This document shows, in pieces, positions 7,825 to 62,411 of a DNA stretch of 64,000 nt (the stretch's first letter is position 1; each line of letters begins with the position of its first letter). The DNA lies in NCBI GenBank assembly GCA_036389795.1, contig DASVWD010000004.1, positions 1 to 64,000 on the forward strand, given 5' to 3'. This DNA is from Longimicrobium sp. Lineage in GTDB: Bacteria > Gemmatimonadota > Gemmatimonadetes > Longimicrobiales > Longimicrobiaceae. A model generated the notes under the pieces. That model was not told the DNA's origin. It made no database searches and worked only from the letters and a program-made list of their open reading frames with translations. The position numbers and the translations under genes were made by a program.

Positions 7825-7897
<73 letters not shown>

Positions 7898-7901
7898 CTG
7901 T

Positions 7902-7975
<74 letters not shown>

Positions 7976-7993
7976 CCTGGTTGGATGGAACAT

Positions 7994-8077
7994 GCTCCGG
8001 TGGCGGAACTGGTAGACGCGCTAGATTCAGGATCTAGTGGGGGCAACCCCGTGGAGGTTCGAGTCCTCTCCAGAGCA
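7994..8077 (+). tRNA. tRNA-Leu (CAG)
   Basis: An 84-nt class II tRNA with a long variable arm (tgggggcaacccc). The anticodon loop ttcagga gives CAG (reads CUG). The acceptor gctccgg pairs with ccagagc with one C-A mismatch at the fifth pair. Confidence 0.94.
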
Positions 8078-8084
8078 CTGTTGG

Positions 8085-8157
8085 GCCCCGTTCGTCTAGT
8101 GGCCTAGGACACAGCCCTCTCAAGGCTGAAACACGGGTTCGATTCCCGTACGGGGTA
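8085..8157 (+). tRNA. tRNA-Glu (CTC)
   Basis: A 73-nt cloverleaf with the typical ttcgtctagtggccta D-arm region of glutamate tRNAs. The anticodon loop ctctcaa gives CTC (reads GAG). The acceptor opens with a G-U pair. Confidence 0.95.
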
Positions 8158-8172
8158 CTGGTTGGAACATGT

Positions 8173-8246
<74 letters not shown>

Positions 8247-8249
8247 TAC

Positions 8250-8323
8250 GGTCGATTAGCTCAGCTGGTTAGAGCGCTCGCCTCACATGCGAGAGGTCCG
8301 GGGTTCGAGTCCCTGATCGACCA
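8250..8323 (+). tRNA. tRNA-Val (CAC)
   Basis: A 74-nt cloverleaf. The acceptor ggtcgat pairs with atcgacc. The anticodon loop ctcacat gives CAC (reads GUG). Confidence 0.95.
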
Positions 8324-8369
8324 CTGGAGGGACAGCCGACGCGGCGCGCGGGCTGTTCCTGCCGTTTCC

Positions 8370-8442
8370 GGGGATGTAGCTCAGCTGGGAGAGCGCTGCA
8401 ATCGCACTGCAGAGGTCAGGGGTTCGATTCCCCTCATCTCCA
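8370..8442 (+). tRNA. tRNA-Ala (CGC)
   Basis: A 73-nt cloverleaf. The acceptor ggggatg pairs with catctcc (one G-U pair). The anticodon loop atcgcac gives CGC (reads GCG). Last tRNA of the cluster; a strong hairpin follows 12 bp later. Confidence 0.95.
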
Positions 8443-8454
8443 CTGGATGAAACG

Positions 8455-17807: not shown

Positions 17808-18263
17808 ATGTACGGGAAGATCAAGGGCCTGTTCACGGTCGCCGCACTCGCCGCCACCGCCGCGTGCAACTCCGGCTCGCCCACGGAGGCCTCGTTCCTG
17901 GCGCCGCCGGACGAGCCCATGGCGGCCCGGGCCGAGAGCCAGCTCACCTTCTCGTCTTCGCAGAGCTACGACACTGCGACGCCGCAGACCTCCACGGGCG
18001 GCGTGGGCGTCATCGGCTTCACCGGCAGCCTGACCACCGGCAACCCGTGCGTCGACGTCACGGCCAGCCACAGCAGCCGTTCGGGGAGCGTGACGGTGAC
18101 GGTCACGGCCGCGCCGAACGGCAGCGCCTGCATCCAGGTGATCACGAACAACAACTACCAGGGCCAGGTGTCGAACCTGGCGCCCGGCACCTACACCTTC
18201 ACCGTGGTCCACGACGTGGGGACCCGCACCACCGCGCACACCAGCACCGTCGTGGTGCAGTAG
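17808..18263 (+). CDS. Putative lipoprotein with beta-sandwich domain
   Basis: A 151-residue protein from an ATG with a strong ggaggaac site. A signal peptide runs to an AATAACNSG lipobox-like Cys at residue 20, so it is likely anchored to a membrane. The mature part is Ser/Thr-rich with alternating strands and two Cys (C64 and C104) that could form a disulphide; SVTVTVTAAPNGSACIQVI and YTFTVVHDVGTRTTAH resemble Ig/fibronectin-like strands. No family recognised. Confidence 0.65.
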   Translation: MYGKIKGLFTVAALAATAACNSGSPTEASFLAPPDEPMAARAESQLTFSSSQSYDTATPQTSTGGVGVIGFTGSLTTGNPCVDVTASHSSRSGSVTVTVTAAPNGSACIQVITNNNYQGQVSNLAPGTYTFTVVHDVGTRTTAHTSTVVVQ

Positions 18264-18454: not shown

Positions 18455-18970
18455 ATGCCCGCTTTCGACTTCGACCGCATGCCCGACGACGCCCGCGTGT
18501 GGGTGTTCGCCGCCTCCCGCGACCTGTCGCCGGACGAGTCGGCGGCGCTGCTGCGGCACGTGGACGGCTTCCTGGCGCACTGGCACGCGCACGGCGCGCC
18601 GGTGGCCGGGGCGCGCGAGCTTCGCCACGGCCGCTTCCTGCTGGTGGCCGCCGACGAGCGCGCCACGGGGGTGTCGGGGTGCTCGATCGACTCGCTCACC
18701 CGCGCGCTGAAGGACGCGGAGGCCGAGCTGGGCCTGTCGCTGCGCGAGGCGGCGTCGCTGGTGTTCTACCGCGGCGCGGACGGCGCCGTGCGCGGGGTGC
18801 CCCGCCCCGAGTTCCGCCGGCTGGCCCAGTCCGGCGAAGTGGGCGAGGACACGGTGGTCTTCGACAACACGGCGGCCAGCGTGGGCGACGTGCGCGCCGG
18901 GCGCTGGGAGCGGCCGCTGCGCGAGTCGTGGCACGCGCGGGCGTTTCCGGTCGGCGCGCCCGCTGCGTGA
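18455..18970 (+). CDS. Conserved hypothetical protein
   Basis: A 171-residue soluble protein with gagggg before the ATG. The pattern VWVFAASRDLS, FLAHWHAHG, RFLLVAADE and SGCSIDSLTRAL, followed by FYRG, matches a small family that databases often label 'ABC transporter ATPase'. It has no Walker motifs, so that label is misleading. The conserved Cys in SGCSID and the His residues could be functional. Role unknown. It is followed by a promoter-terminator pair that does not belong to it. Confidence 0.7.
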   Translation: MPAFDFDRMPDDARVWVFAASRDLSPDESAALLRHVDGFLAHWHAHGAPVAGARELRHGRFLLVAADERATGVSGCSIDSLTRALKDAEAELGLSLREAASLVFYRGADGAVRGVPRPEFRRLAQSGEVGEDTVVFDNTAASVGDVRAGRWERPLRESWHARAFPVGAPAA

Positions 18971-18989: not shown

Positions 18990-19018
18990 TTGACAGGGCG
19001 AGGGGGTTCGGTTATACT
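18990..19018 (+). promoter_or_regulatory. Near-consensus sigma-70 promoter
   Basis: Perfect TTGACA at 18990-18995, a 17-bp spacer and TATACT at 19013-19018. It is the best promoter in the window. It drives transcription toward a terminator only about 40 bp away, with no gene between. Confidence 0.8.
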
Positions 19019-19025
19019 TCGGCCC

Positions 19026-19092
19026 AAGCAGTTGGACTGGGAACACCCGGTCGGCGACTGGCCTCGGCGAAATGCCGGGGCCTTTCGTTTTT
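19026..19092 (+). ncRNA. Candidate small RNA, about 67 nt
   Basis: Bounded by the near-consensus promoter (predicted start about 19025-19026) and an intrinsic terminator: ggcctcggc / gccggggcc (one G-U pair), loop gaaat, then tttcgttttt (19060-19092). The DNA between has no reading frame with a ribosome site. The next gene, at 19109, is convergent, so the promoter serves nothing else. No known RNA family is recognised. Confidence 0.6.
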
Positions 19093-19108: not shown

Positions 19109-19849
19109 TCAGGGAAAGACCTTCAGCCCCCACCCCTCCTTCCGACCGGACGGGCTGCGGCGGAACTTGGGCTCCAGCAGGTCGCAGGCGCGGTTGGGCT
19201 GCGCGGGGTCCAGCACCTTGCGCCCGATCGGCCGCGCGACCAGATCGGCGAGCTGGAGCCCGGCCGAGTTCGCCTTCTTGTCGGTCATCACGATCTCGAA
19301 CGGGAGCGCCCGGCGCAGGTGGTTGTCGCCGCCGCAGACGCGGCGGAAGGCCTCCTCCAGCCGGGCGTCTTCCTTCGCCCCGCGCCGCTCGAACAGCAGG
19401 TGCGTGACGCCGCCGCTGCACCCGCGCCCGCACAGGTGCTGGTAGATGCGCTCCAGGCCGAAGCCCATGGCCACGTGGTAGGGATCGGCCGGGCGGCGGT
19501 AGCGCTCGCGGTGGCGCTGCTTGTGGATGGCGCTGGCGACCAGCGTGAACGGCGCCTCCACCATCAGCCGGTCGAGGTCGGCGAAGAAGGCGTCGCGCCG
19601 CGCGGCGTCGAAGAGGAAGGCGAACGGGCCCTTGCTCTTGCGGATGTCGTGCTCGTGCAGGATCACCTGGTCGTGTCCGAAGTGGCGGTACTTGAAGCGC
19701 AGCACCGCGGGCGCGGCGGCGGACGCGTACGCTTCCTTCTCGAAGACGAGGAAGGCCAGGACGAACACGGGGTAGCTGGCGTCGATCGACTCCATGCCGT
19801 GGTCGCCGCTCTCGTCGACGAAGACCACGTAGTCGCTGAAGGCGGGCAA
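19109..19849 (-). CDS. DUF3800 domain protein
   Basis: A 246-residue protein of the DUF3800 family, an RNase H-like fold common on mobile and defence-rich DNA. Conserved elements are VFVDESGDHG near the N-terminus (acidic metal ligands), HEHDIRKSKG around residue 67, and near the C-terminus TDKKANSAGLQLADLVARPIG, where the LQxADL Asp is the third acidic site. The start is a TTG at 19849 with a weak ribosome site; a later GTG (about residue 8) is possible. No partner gene is adjacent. Activity unproven for the family. Confidence 0.8.
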   Translation of the reverse strand: MPAFSDYVVFVDESGDHGMESIDASYPVFVLAFLVFEKEAYASAAAPAVLRFKYRHFGHDQVILHEHDIRKSKGPFAFLFDAARRDAFFADLDRLMVEAPFTLVASAIHKQRHRERYRRPADPYHVAMGFGLERIYQHLCGRGCSGGVTHLLFERRGAKEDARLEEAFRRVCGGDNHLRRALPFEIVMTDKKANSAGLQLADLVARPIGRKVLDPAQPNRACDLLEPKFRRSPSGRKEGWGLKVFP

Positions 19850-20091: not shown

Positions 20092-20097
20092 ACCGCA

Positions 20098-20216
20098 GTG
20101 CGAAGTGCTGAGTGCGAAGTGCTAAGTGCTTGTCTGCGTACGAAGGCAATCGCCGCTCGGCTTCGCACTTCGCACTTCGCACTTCGCACTTCGCACTTCG
20201 CACTTCGCACTTCGCA
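20098..20216. repeat. Stutter palindrome with eight 7-bp units
   Basis: Right arm: eight perfect tandem copies of cttcgca (20161-20216), ending 2 bp before the stop codon at 20219. Left arm: agtgcgaagtgctgagtgcg and related units (20098-20130), complementary to the right arm. Together they can form a long imperfect hairpin, likely terminating the transporter gene. Confidence 0.75.
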
Positions 20217-42596: not shown

Positions 42597-42773
42597 ATGA
42601 AGCTCAGGATCGAGGACCTCCAAGTCGACTCGTTCGCCACCGCGGAAGCGGGTGCGGACGCGCGCGGGACCGTCCAGGCGCACGAGGTCACGCCGCTCCG
42701 CTCGTGCCAGCCGCGCTACACCTGCCCGGAGTGTGCCTCGCCCGTGTTCGAGCCGGGCGAGCAGAAAGACTGA
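42597..42773 (+). CDS. Candidate RiPP precursor (pinensin-like leader)
   Basis: A 58-residue peptide with a strong ggaggaag site. The leader MKLRIEDLQVDSFATAEAG matches the LxxxDLxVxSFxT pattern of pinensin-type lanthipeptide and related Bacteroidota/Gemmatimonadota precursors, followed by ARGTVQAHE. The C-terminal core holds three Cys and several Ser/Thr (PLRSCQPRYTCPECASPVF). No lanthionine synthetase, protease or ABC exporter of the usual RiPP type is adjacent, so modification enzymes would act in trans. Assignment rests on the leader pattern. Confidence 0.6.
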   Translation: MKLRIEDLQVDSFATAEAGADARGTVQAHEVTPLRSCQPRYTCPECASPVFEPGEQKD

Positions 42774-62383: not shown

Positions 62384-62411
62384 TTGACCCGACGTTGTCT
62401 TGCTGTATAAT
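62384..62411 (+). promoter_or_regulatory. Promoter of the MNT/HEPN operon
   Basis: TTGACC at 62384-62389, a 16-bp spacer and perfect TATAAT at 62406-62411. Predicted start about 62418, inside the operator. Confidence 0.75.

Follow-up and report, generated by a model that had tools for sequence, protein, structure and literature searches.

Organization of the locus

The window (the whole 64,000-nucleotide stretch analysed here) is part of a 7.5-Mb draft genome in 285 contigs, and homologous loci in the closest named genomes (L100 and L066) are labelled Gemmatimonadetes. Between a short gene on the forward strand (18455-18970) and a convergent gene on the reverse strand (19109-19849) lies a promoter, TTGACA-17-TATACT (18990-19018, + strand), which matches 11 of 12 consensus positions and is followed by the gene for a small RNA of about 67 nt (19026-19092, + strand) of a family that we designated R1. 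The convergent gene encodes a 246-amino-acid DUF3800 protein with a predicted RNase HII-like fold, the proposed protein partner of the RNA. An earlier sequence-only reading of this DNA had described the promoter, a T-tract terminator and the convergent gene and had proposed a discrete RNA of about 67 nt; each of these was borne out, and the homology model placed the RNA at the same coordinates. That reading had also called the promoter the strongest in the window. The score of 11/12 is indeed the highest, but it is shared with a second forward-strand site at 62384 (TTGACC-16-TATAAT); 0.1 sites of this score are expected per window. Two promoter-like sites, including that at 18990, occurred in 8 kb, compared to 0.2 in shuffled sequence. 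The RNA scored 72.7 bits with the R1 model (cmsearch, E 4.7e-15), a self-score that is not independent since the window sequence is part of the R1 training set.

Elsewhere in the window, seven tRNA genes (Lys, Arg, Leu, Glu, Met, Val and Ala) are clustered within 620 bases (7825-8443), and an array of GTGCGAA/TTCGCAC heptamers in both orientations lies upstream of the DUF3800 gene (20097-20216). A Thr tRNA called by ARAGORN (18155-18246, - strand) is probably false; it lies within an open frame and is without an Rfam match.

The 5' end of the RNA was placed by inference from the -10 box. Hairpin 1 (19035-19052, + strand; GACUGGG-AACA-CCCGGUC) holds a conserved U-G pair at 19038/19049, which is U-G in 46 of the 48 sequences of the R1 alignment. 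A basal helix with an internal loop (19053-19089, + strand), formed by GGCG (19053-19056) and CGUU (19086-19089), encloses the terminator hairpin; support for this helix is weaker than for the hairpins, and some of its cells are unpaired. Hairpin 2 (19060-19082) and the T-rich tail (19083-19092) form an intrinsic terminator on the + strand with covarying pairs, in which a 10-pair stem is followed by TTTCGTTTTT. The fold energy of the 68-nt strand was -37.2 kcal/mol, compared to -22.5 for shuffled sequences (z -4.9). The only start codons within the RNA interval are TTG 19032 and ATG 19072. Neither has a Shine-Dalgarno-like stretch upstream and the frames from both extend into the opposite-strand gene, indicating that the interval holds no plausible reading frame, as the sequence-only reading had stated.

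Conservation and structure of the R1 RNA family

A BLASTN search of 99 genomes, the source genome included, turned up unambiguous homologues (E at most 1.5e-5) in five further genomes (G009, G004, G015, G002 and G005), and G014 had a weaker match. The conserved part was the RNA, from about 19033 onward, and in four of these six genomes (G009, G004, G015 and G002) the RNA lay convergent at the end of a DUF3800 gene. Named genomes were searched with a five-protein DUF3800 alignment (A1), which returned 213 relatives, 80 of which were kept (L039-L118) with a bias to proteins containing F(VAG)DESGDH or GWGL(KN)(VI)FP. The kept relatives showed 45-67% identity and were labelled Proteobacteria, Verrucomicrobia, Nitrospira, Acidobacteria, Planctomycetes, KSB1, Krumholzibacteriia and others. 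On the opposite strand past the DUF3800 stop codon, the same RNA was present at the junction in nearly all of them. Some loci were apparently reached through two collections (L100/L011, L066/L012 and L046/L123).

For the R1 alignment 87 regions were entered, of which nine were missed by the extraction pattern, five were dropped by hand (L082, L013, L118, L094 and L107), one had unknown bases (L087) and five more had a T tract that was not recognised; 67 remained, and 48 after near-copies were removed. All of the dropped loci were later recovered by the R1 model. The 48 RNAs were aligned with MAFFT, structure not being used (A2). In this alignment the 22-pair structure had 95.4% standard cells (85.3% in shuffled alignments), 15 pairs changed on both sides (8.6 shuffled) and 107 double-change cells (28.2 shuffled), and 0 of 500 shuffles, which ignore relatedness, reached any of the five covariation measures. 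When the structure was slid along the alignment, the paired fraction fell to 61% or less. Hairpin 1 was the best-supported element (99.7% of cells), and the basal GGCG helix was the least supported, three of its four pairs showing 5-10 unpaired cells.

The paired columns on the RNA strand comprised 788 Watson-Crick, 216 G-U and 4 C-A cells. Because these columns had been picked on the RNA strand, the reverse complement was folded as well. The consensus fold was -32.15 kcal/mol on the RNA strand versus -4.41 kcal/mol on the reverse complement, and each of the 48 sequences, folded singly, also reached a lower energy as the RNA strand. The fold, together with the strand bias of G-U over C-A cells, indicated that the + strand, and not the one encoding DUF3800, is functional.

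Promoters and loops were tabulated for 109 RNAs from DUF3800 loci and from plasmid, phage and viral loci, leaving out some duplicates, the second L094 copy, L087, L154 and L180. A promoter score of at least 9/12 was found in 50 of the 109, compared to 4.3% of shuffles, the mean best score at homologous loci was 8.4/12 (6.8 shuffled), and the -10 box lay at a similar distance in most of them. The promoter thus belongs to the mobile unit. The sequence-only reading had tied its small RNA to conservation of the hairpin and promoter in relatives, and both are conserved.

The hairpins of some RNAs carry the same loop twice, with ACUA in L065, L068, L107, L114 and L108, and GAUU in L055, L098 and L047. 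Apical loops differ among lineages, and the two loops of the window RNA differ from each other (AACA and AAA). Of 68 non-redundant RNAs, 14 had the same sequence in loops 1 and 2, where 1.6 were expected (0 of 20000 shuffles, relatedness uncontrolled), which gives a hint of one protein surface reading both RNA loops.

R1 is linked to one DUF3800 subfamily

R1 matched at 80 of the 80 kept DUF3800 loci, 46 of which are in the model, in the kind of covariance search of relatives that the sequence-only reading had recommended. That reading had called the promoter and terminator an orphan, a description that does not hold, for the R1 RNA is a fixed companion of this DUF3800 subfamily and the linkage is near obligate. 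Of 77 loci measured, 51 have the RNA directly against the DUF3800 stop codon or sharing a single base with it, and another 16 have an overlap of 2 to 51 bases between RNA and gene. At L043 the two genes are 1.9 kb apart due to a 568-aa gene between them, transposase-like as read from its translation, and both RNA and DUF3800 are intact. Two tandem R1 copies (71.0 and 42.5 bits) lie beside one DUF3800 gene at L094 (3235-3372).

Loci on plasmids, phages and viral contigs were outside the R1 model set. R1 was present at 9 of 9 plasmid loci examined, drawn from 45 plasmid records with a DUF3800 match, in Pseudomonas phage JBD68 (69.8 bits) and, at the expected position, in Paracoccus phage Pkon1 (26.7 bits). 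Among 11 viral contigs, eight had R1 at 53-76 bits and two more at 33-35 bits. R1 was not matched at L155 (33% identity) or in Latilactobacillus phage L171 (28%). Whole-genome searches of 25 carrier genomes (E<=1e-5) yielded 26 R1 hits, one beside each of 26 subfamily genes (335-400 bits) and none elsewhere, and two distant DUF3800 genes in these genomes (181 and 51 bits) were without R1. Since the genomes were selected as carriers, this one-to-one result tests specificity, not frequency.

Distribution, co-inheritance and mobility

In a survey of 395 genomes of the phylum, DUF3800 was found at E<=1e-10 in 11. Nine of these belonged to the subfamily and had R1 at the 3' end (9/9), and the two distant ones were without it. 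R1 scored above 50 bits at 12 places in 11 genomes, three of which (G005, G014 and the second copy of G009, on C29) had no detectable DUF3800 nearby. A second survey covered 297 genomes of the order of the Microvirga carrier G403. There R1 occurred in five genomes, comprising one intact pair, two pairs cut by contig ends, G522, in which R1 is kept and DUF3800 is split in two frames, and G455, in which R1 is kept and DUF3800 is reduced to a 49-aa remnant. DUF3800 was found in 9 of the 297, and the five without R1 were all distant (46-193 bits). The RNA was therefore seen without an intact neighbouring DUF3800 gene in five cases, all in draft assemblies in which frameshifts may be assembly errors, and a subfamily DUF3800 gene without R1 was not seen in the 80 loci, the genome surveys or the 25 carriers. 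The RNA can outlast the DUF3800 gene, and the reverse was not seen. This asymmetry suits an antitoxin-like RNA, but would also suit a necessary cofactor.

The phylum survey also returned R1 hits of 30-35 bits in G307, G201 (twice), G006, G152, G369, G345 and G220. These were rejected as chance GC-rich hairpins, DUF3800 being absent from the stretches around them, and hits at 42769 (16.9 bits) and 38383 (14.8 bits) in the window were likewise taken to be chance hairpins.

Protein and RNA distances were correlated across 77 of the 80 loci (r 0.68, 0 of 2000 permutations; L066, L087 and L100 were left out), and r was 0.41 for distant pairs. Two units occur in Xanthomonas arboricola CFBP3123, and in each of them the RNA is nearest to the RNAs of its own protein clade. 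The distribution of the module is patchy and takes in conjugative and other plasmids, temperate phages and chromosomes.

In JBD68 (L169, 4306-5780) an S24 repressor gene lies directly upstream of DUF3800 and the convergent R1 RNA lies behind it. The unit stands in an apparent lysogeny region with proteins annotated as hypothetical. In Pkon1 a CI-like repressor gene is followed by one small gene and then DUF3800, and in two viral contigs the module lies behind hsdS, with a PtuA-like ATPase following in one of them. PADLOC matched four of ten neighbours, a small chosen sample (two hsdS, the ATPase and a Bradyrhizobium plasmid helicase). Other loci, the window included, have ordinary gene surroundings.

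The DUF3800 protein is predicted to resemble RNase HII

The window protein matched Pfam PF12686 at 58.9 bits (cut-off 21, E 1.2e-15), its only Pfam match. Searched by sequence, solved structures gave no match, and 0 families of the PADLOC defence profiles matched the protein at E up to 1. The AlphaFold2 model had a pLDDT of 96.2 and a pTM of 0.92. The best solved matches of this model in Foldseek were RNases HII (E 4.7e-5 for 2dff), and VIA-align gave Z 11.2 and an rmsd of 3.4 over 167 residues with RNase HII 1eke_B, with ranks 1-17 all taken by RNases HII, H2 and HIII and Argonaute PIWI regions coming next. Identity to RNase HII was about 13% over the aligned part. Residues D12, E13, E154 and D202 were invariant in 54 DUF3800 sequences and may correspond to the RNase HII catalytic set. 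The modelled protein is thus predicted, with high confidence, to have an RNase HII-like fold. It resembles RNase HII in predicted fold and in having a set of four invariant acidic residues, which start with Asp-Glu, and is unlike it in coming with a dedicated RNA and in being only a predicted nuclease.

Excerpts of PMC10910872 and PMC12669027 report an RNase H fold for DUF3800 and describe DUF3800 proteins that accompany some Cas12a2 and VI-F systems, and an association of DUF3800 with putative ncRNAs had already been noted in work cited in the former. The one functional datum on DUF3800 in the literature surveyed comes from an excerpt of PMC7811196, in which a DUF3800 gene specific to the Legionella pneumophila strain HL77S scored as essential by Tn-seq and is listed beside antitoxins. 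This speaks against that DUF3800 protein, which may belong to another subfamily, being a plain toxin.

Comparison with known RNAs

No Rfam 15 family reached its cut-off for this RNA or the relatives scanned. The DUF3800-named families were unmatched at E up to 10 in the window, up to 1 in seven relatives and up to 3 in ten relatives. We take DUF3800-I (RF02969), DUF3800-IX (RF02968) and their siblings to lie near PF12686 genes, and the first description of DUF3800-associated RNA motifs is reportedly that of Weinberg et al. 2017. Like these motifs, the window RNA is structured, lies beside a gene for a PF12686-domain protein and is likewise of no known function, but R1 has 68 positions and DUF3800-I has 115. 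DUF3800-I and DUF3800-IX are named as Rfam RNA families in an excerpt of PMC11701678, and DUF3800-IX also in one of PMC7657543. DUF3800-I gave no hit in 61 relatives or in the 25 carriers, and since the control searches were silent as well, this result does not bear on DUF3800-I gene order. The best weak Rfam match was BjrC68 (RF02353), which like R1 consists of two hairpins, the second a terminator. It scored 19.5 bits in the window and at most 26.6 bits in relatives (cut-off 39), and it was rejected because a true BjrC68 (54 bits, L181) is without a nearby DUF3800 gene and is not detected by R1.

Discussion

The window very likely holds a real small-RNA gene of about 67 nt that travels with DUF3800 between very different bacteria. 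We are confident that this small RNA gene is conserved, is a partner of DUF3800 and has no Rfam family, and that DUF3800 has in it a conserved RNA partner gene is close to certain. The evidence bears directly on the conservation of the RNA, its structure, strand and promoter, its linkage, its patchy spread through plasmids and phages, and the predicted RNase-HII-like fold of the protein. Together these results suggest a module of RNA plus protein that has yet to be studied and that may be a toxin-antitoxin pair or serve in phage defence.

Our preferred reading is a mobile module of RNA and nuclease, where the RNA would most likely act as an inhibitor of the nuclease, similar to type III toxin-antitoxin systems; we put its chances at about even. 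The near-consensus promoter would give rise to a two-hairpin RNA of about 67 nt, independent of the convergent DUF3800 gene and ended by hairpin 2 as terminator, and the folded RNA would be bound by DUF3800, a putative RNase HII-like nuclease. Direct binding of the RNA by the protein is probable. The RNA may then restrain the nuclease, as type III RNA antitoxins restrain RNases, and the nuclease would act when the RNA becomes scarce, for example upon phage infection or loss of the element. We infer each of these steps: transcription, binding, nuclease activity, inhibition and trigger. For inhibition rather than activation of DUF3800 by the RNA, the balance is about level.

The module is like the type III systems ToxIN, CptIN and TenpIN in pairing a mobile nuclease-like protein with a small structured RNA, in its prophage and plasmid settings and in that the RNA can outlast the protein. 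It is unlike them in its protein, which is RNase HII-like and has DUF3800 as its sole Pfam match, unlike ToxN, CptN and TenpN. In known type III systems the antitoxin precedes the toxin within a single operon and is often tandemly repeated, whereas the R1 gene is convergent, mostly single copy and has its own promoter, a layout that counts against the type III-like reading. Other observations also run against inhibition. The cases of RNA without an intact gene number five and come from drafts. Essentiality of the L. pneumophila HL77S gene, as given in the excerpt of PMC7811196, would fit DUF3800 as the protective partner, and an RNA that is indispensable as a cofactor would give the same asymmetric loss pattern.

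The latter possibility, an RNA that is needed for or directs a nuclease against invaders as part of a ribonucleoprotein with DUF3800, is the leading alternative, though we consider it unlikely. It draws on the close linkage, on the RNase H-like fold with Argonaute PIWI regions among the next matches, on the settings among defence genes and prophages, and on the DUF3800 proteins that accompany some Cas12a2 and VI-F systems in the excerpts of PMC10910872 and PMC12669027. However, the RNA consists of a short leader and two conserved hairpins, with no variable guide segment, and RNA genes beside broken or lost DUF3800 genes are less expected of a pure cofactor, although such remnants could be transient.

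Essentiality of the HL77S gene (PMC7811196, in the same excerpt) would also be explained if the roles were inverted, the small RNA being harmful and DUF3800 degrading or trapping it. This is improbable, as RNA genes persist where DUF3800 is absent or broken (five cases) and subfamily DUF3800 was never found without the RNA (80 loci and 25 carriers).

Slightly less probable again is a type I-like, cis-antisense role, in which the RNA would pair with a read-through 3' end of the DUF3800 mRNA, a purpose that the sequence-only reading had raised. The genes are convergent, the RNA abuts or overlaps the stop codon by one base in 51 of 77 loci, and the hairpin on the DUF3800 strand, judged by eye, has no T-run after it; the type I antisense RNAs RatA and SR4 are likewise convergent small RNAs at the 3' end of a partner gene. 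R1, unlike RatA and SR4, has little overlap with its partner gene and a covarying structure, and its partner is a 246-aa enzyme-like protein. The data make such pairing an unlikely purpose. The compensatory changes preserve the fold of one strand only and antisense pairing needs none, the transposase-like gene at L043 separates an RNA and a DUF3800 gene that are both kept, and copies of the RNA occur elsewhere without a DUF3800 gene.

An independent small RNA that acts in trans on host mRNAs by base pairing and hitch-hikes near DUF3800 would have its own promoter and terminator, as many bacterial small RNAs do. This is very improbable given that the apical loops, the usual pairing segments, vary between lineages, that hosts in many phyla would not be expected to share a target, and that the sample shows complete linkage to a single protein family. 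A chance promoter-like site and terminator with no functional RNA is scarcely credible; short length is the one point for it, and covariation, strand bias, promoter conservation and linkage all speak against it.

DUF3800 is a domain without known function, and one widespread subfamily of it now has a near-obligate RNA linkage. RNA strand, promoter and structure are fixed, the protein is a predicted nuclease, and the pattern of losses gives a hint as to which partner is in control. The two-part system is small (246 aa and 67 nt), and cognate pairs are available from many phyla. Should the RNA inhibit, the pair would amount to a toxin-antitoxin system whose genes converge and whose nuclease fold is different; with an activating RNA, it would be a compact RNA-dependent nuclease.

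RNA-like elements at distant DUF3800 genes

In small samples of distant DUF3800 genes, read by eye, the position of R1 was taken by different RNA-like elements, again convergent. We tentatively propose that the DUF3800 class is the protein half of many undescribed RNA-controlled RNase-HII-like modules, in which each subfamily would have its own convergent structured RNA at its 3' end (R1 and at least three other types), the RNA would keep the nuclease inactive, and the pair would serve phages, plasmids and chromosomes as an addiction or anti-phage device; we hold this a little less probable than its opposite. No comparable element was recognised by eye at L200 or L171, and Rfam gave no near-cut-off match at the elements of L167, L168, L197, L198 and L193. 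A DNA pattern for the L167/L168-type RNA was unmatched in viral contigs. L256, L199 and L155 have a terminator-like hairpin, with no sequence in common with the others established. At the 3' end of DUF3800, L167 and L168 have in common GGAGGUGGAUGGC-n-GCCAUCGGA followed by a terminator, L197 and L198 share ACCCGGUGCU...GAUGGUnCAnAAUCCAUCGA, also followed by a terminator, and a single hairpin with GGGCUGG(U/C)CACUGCGUAGCGGGGGCUGGCCC is common to L193 and L255.
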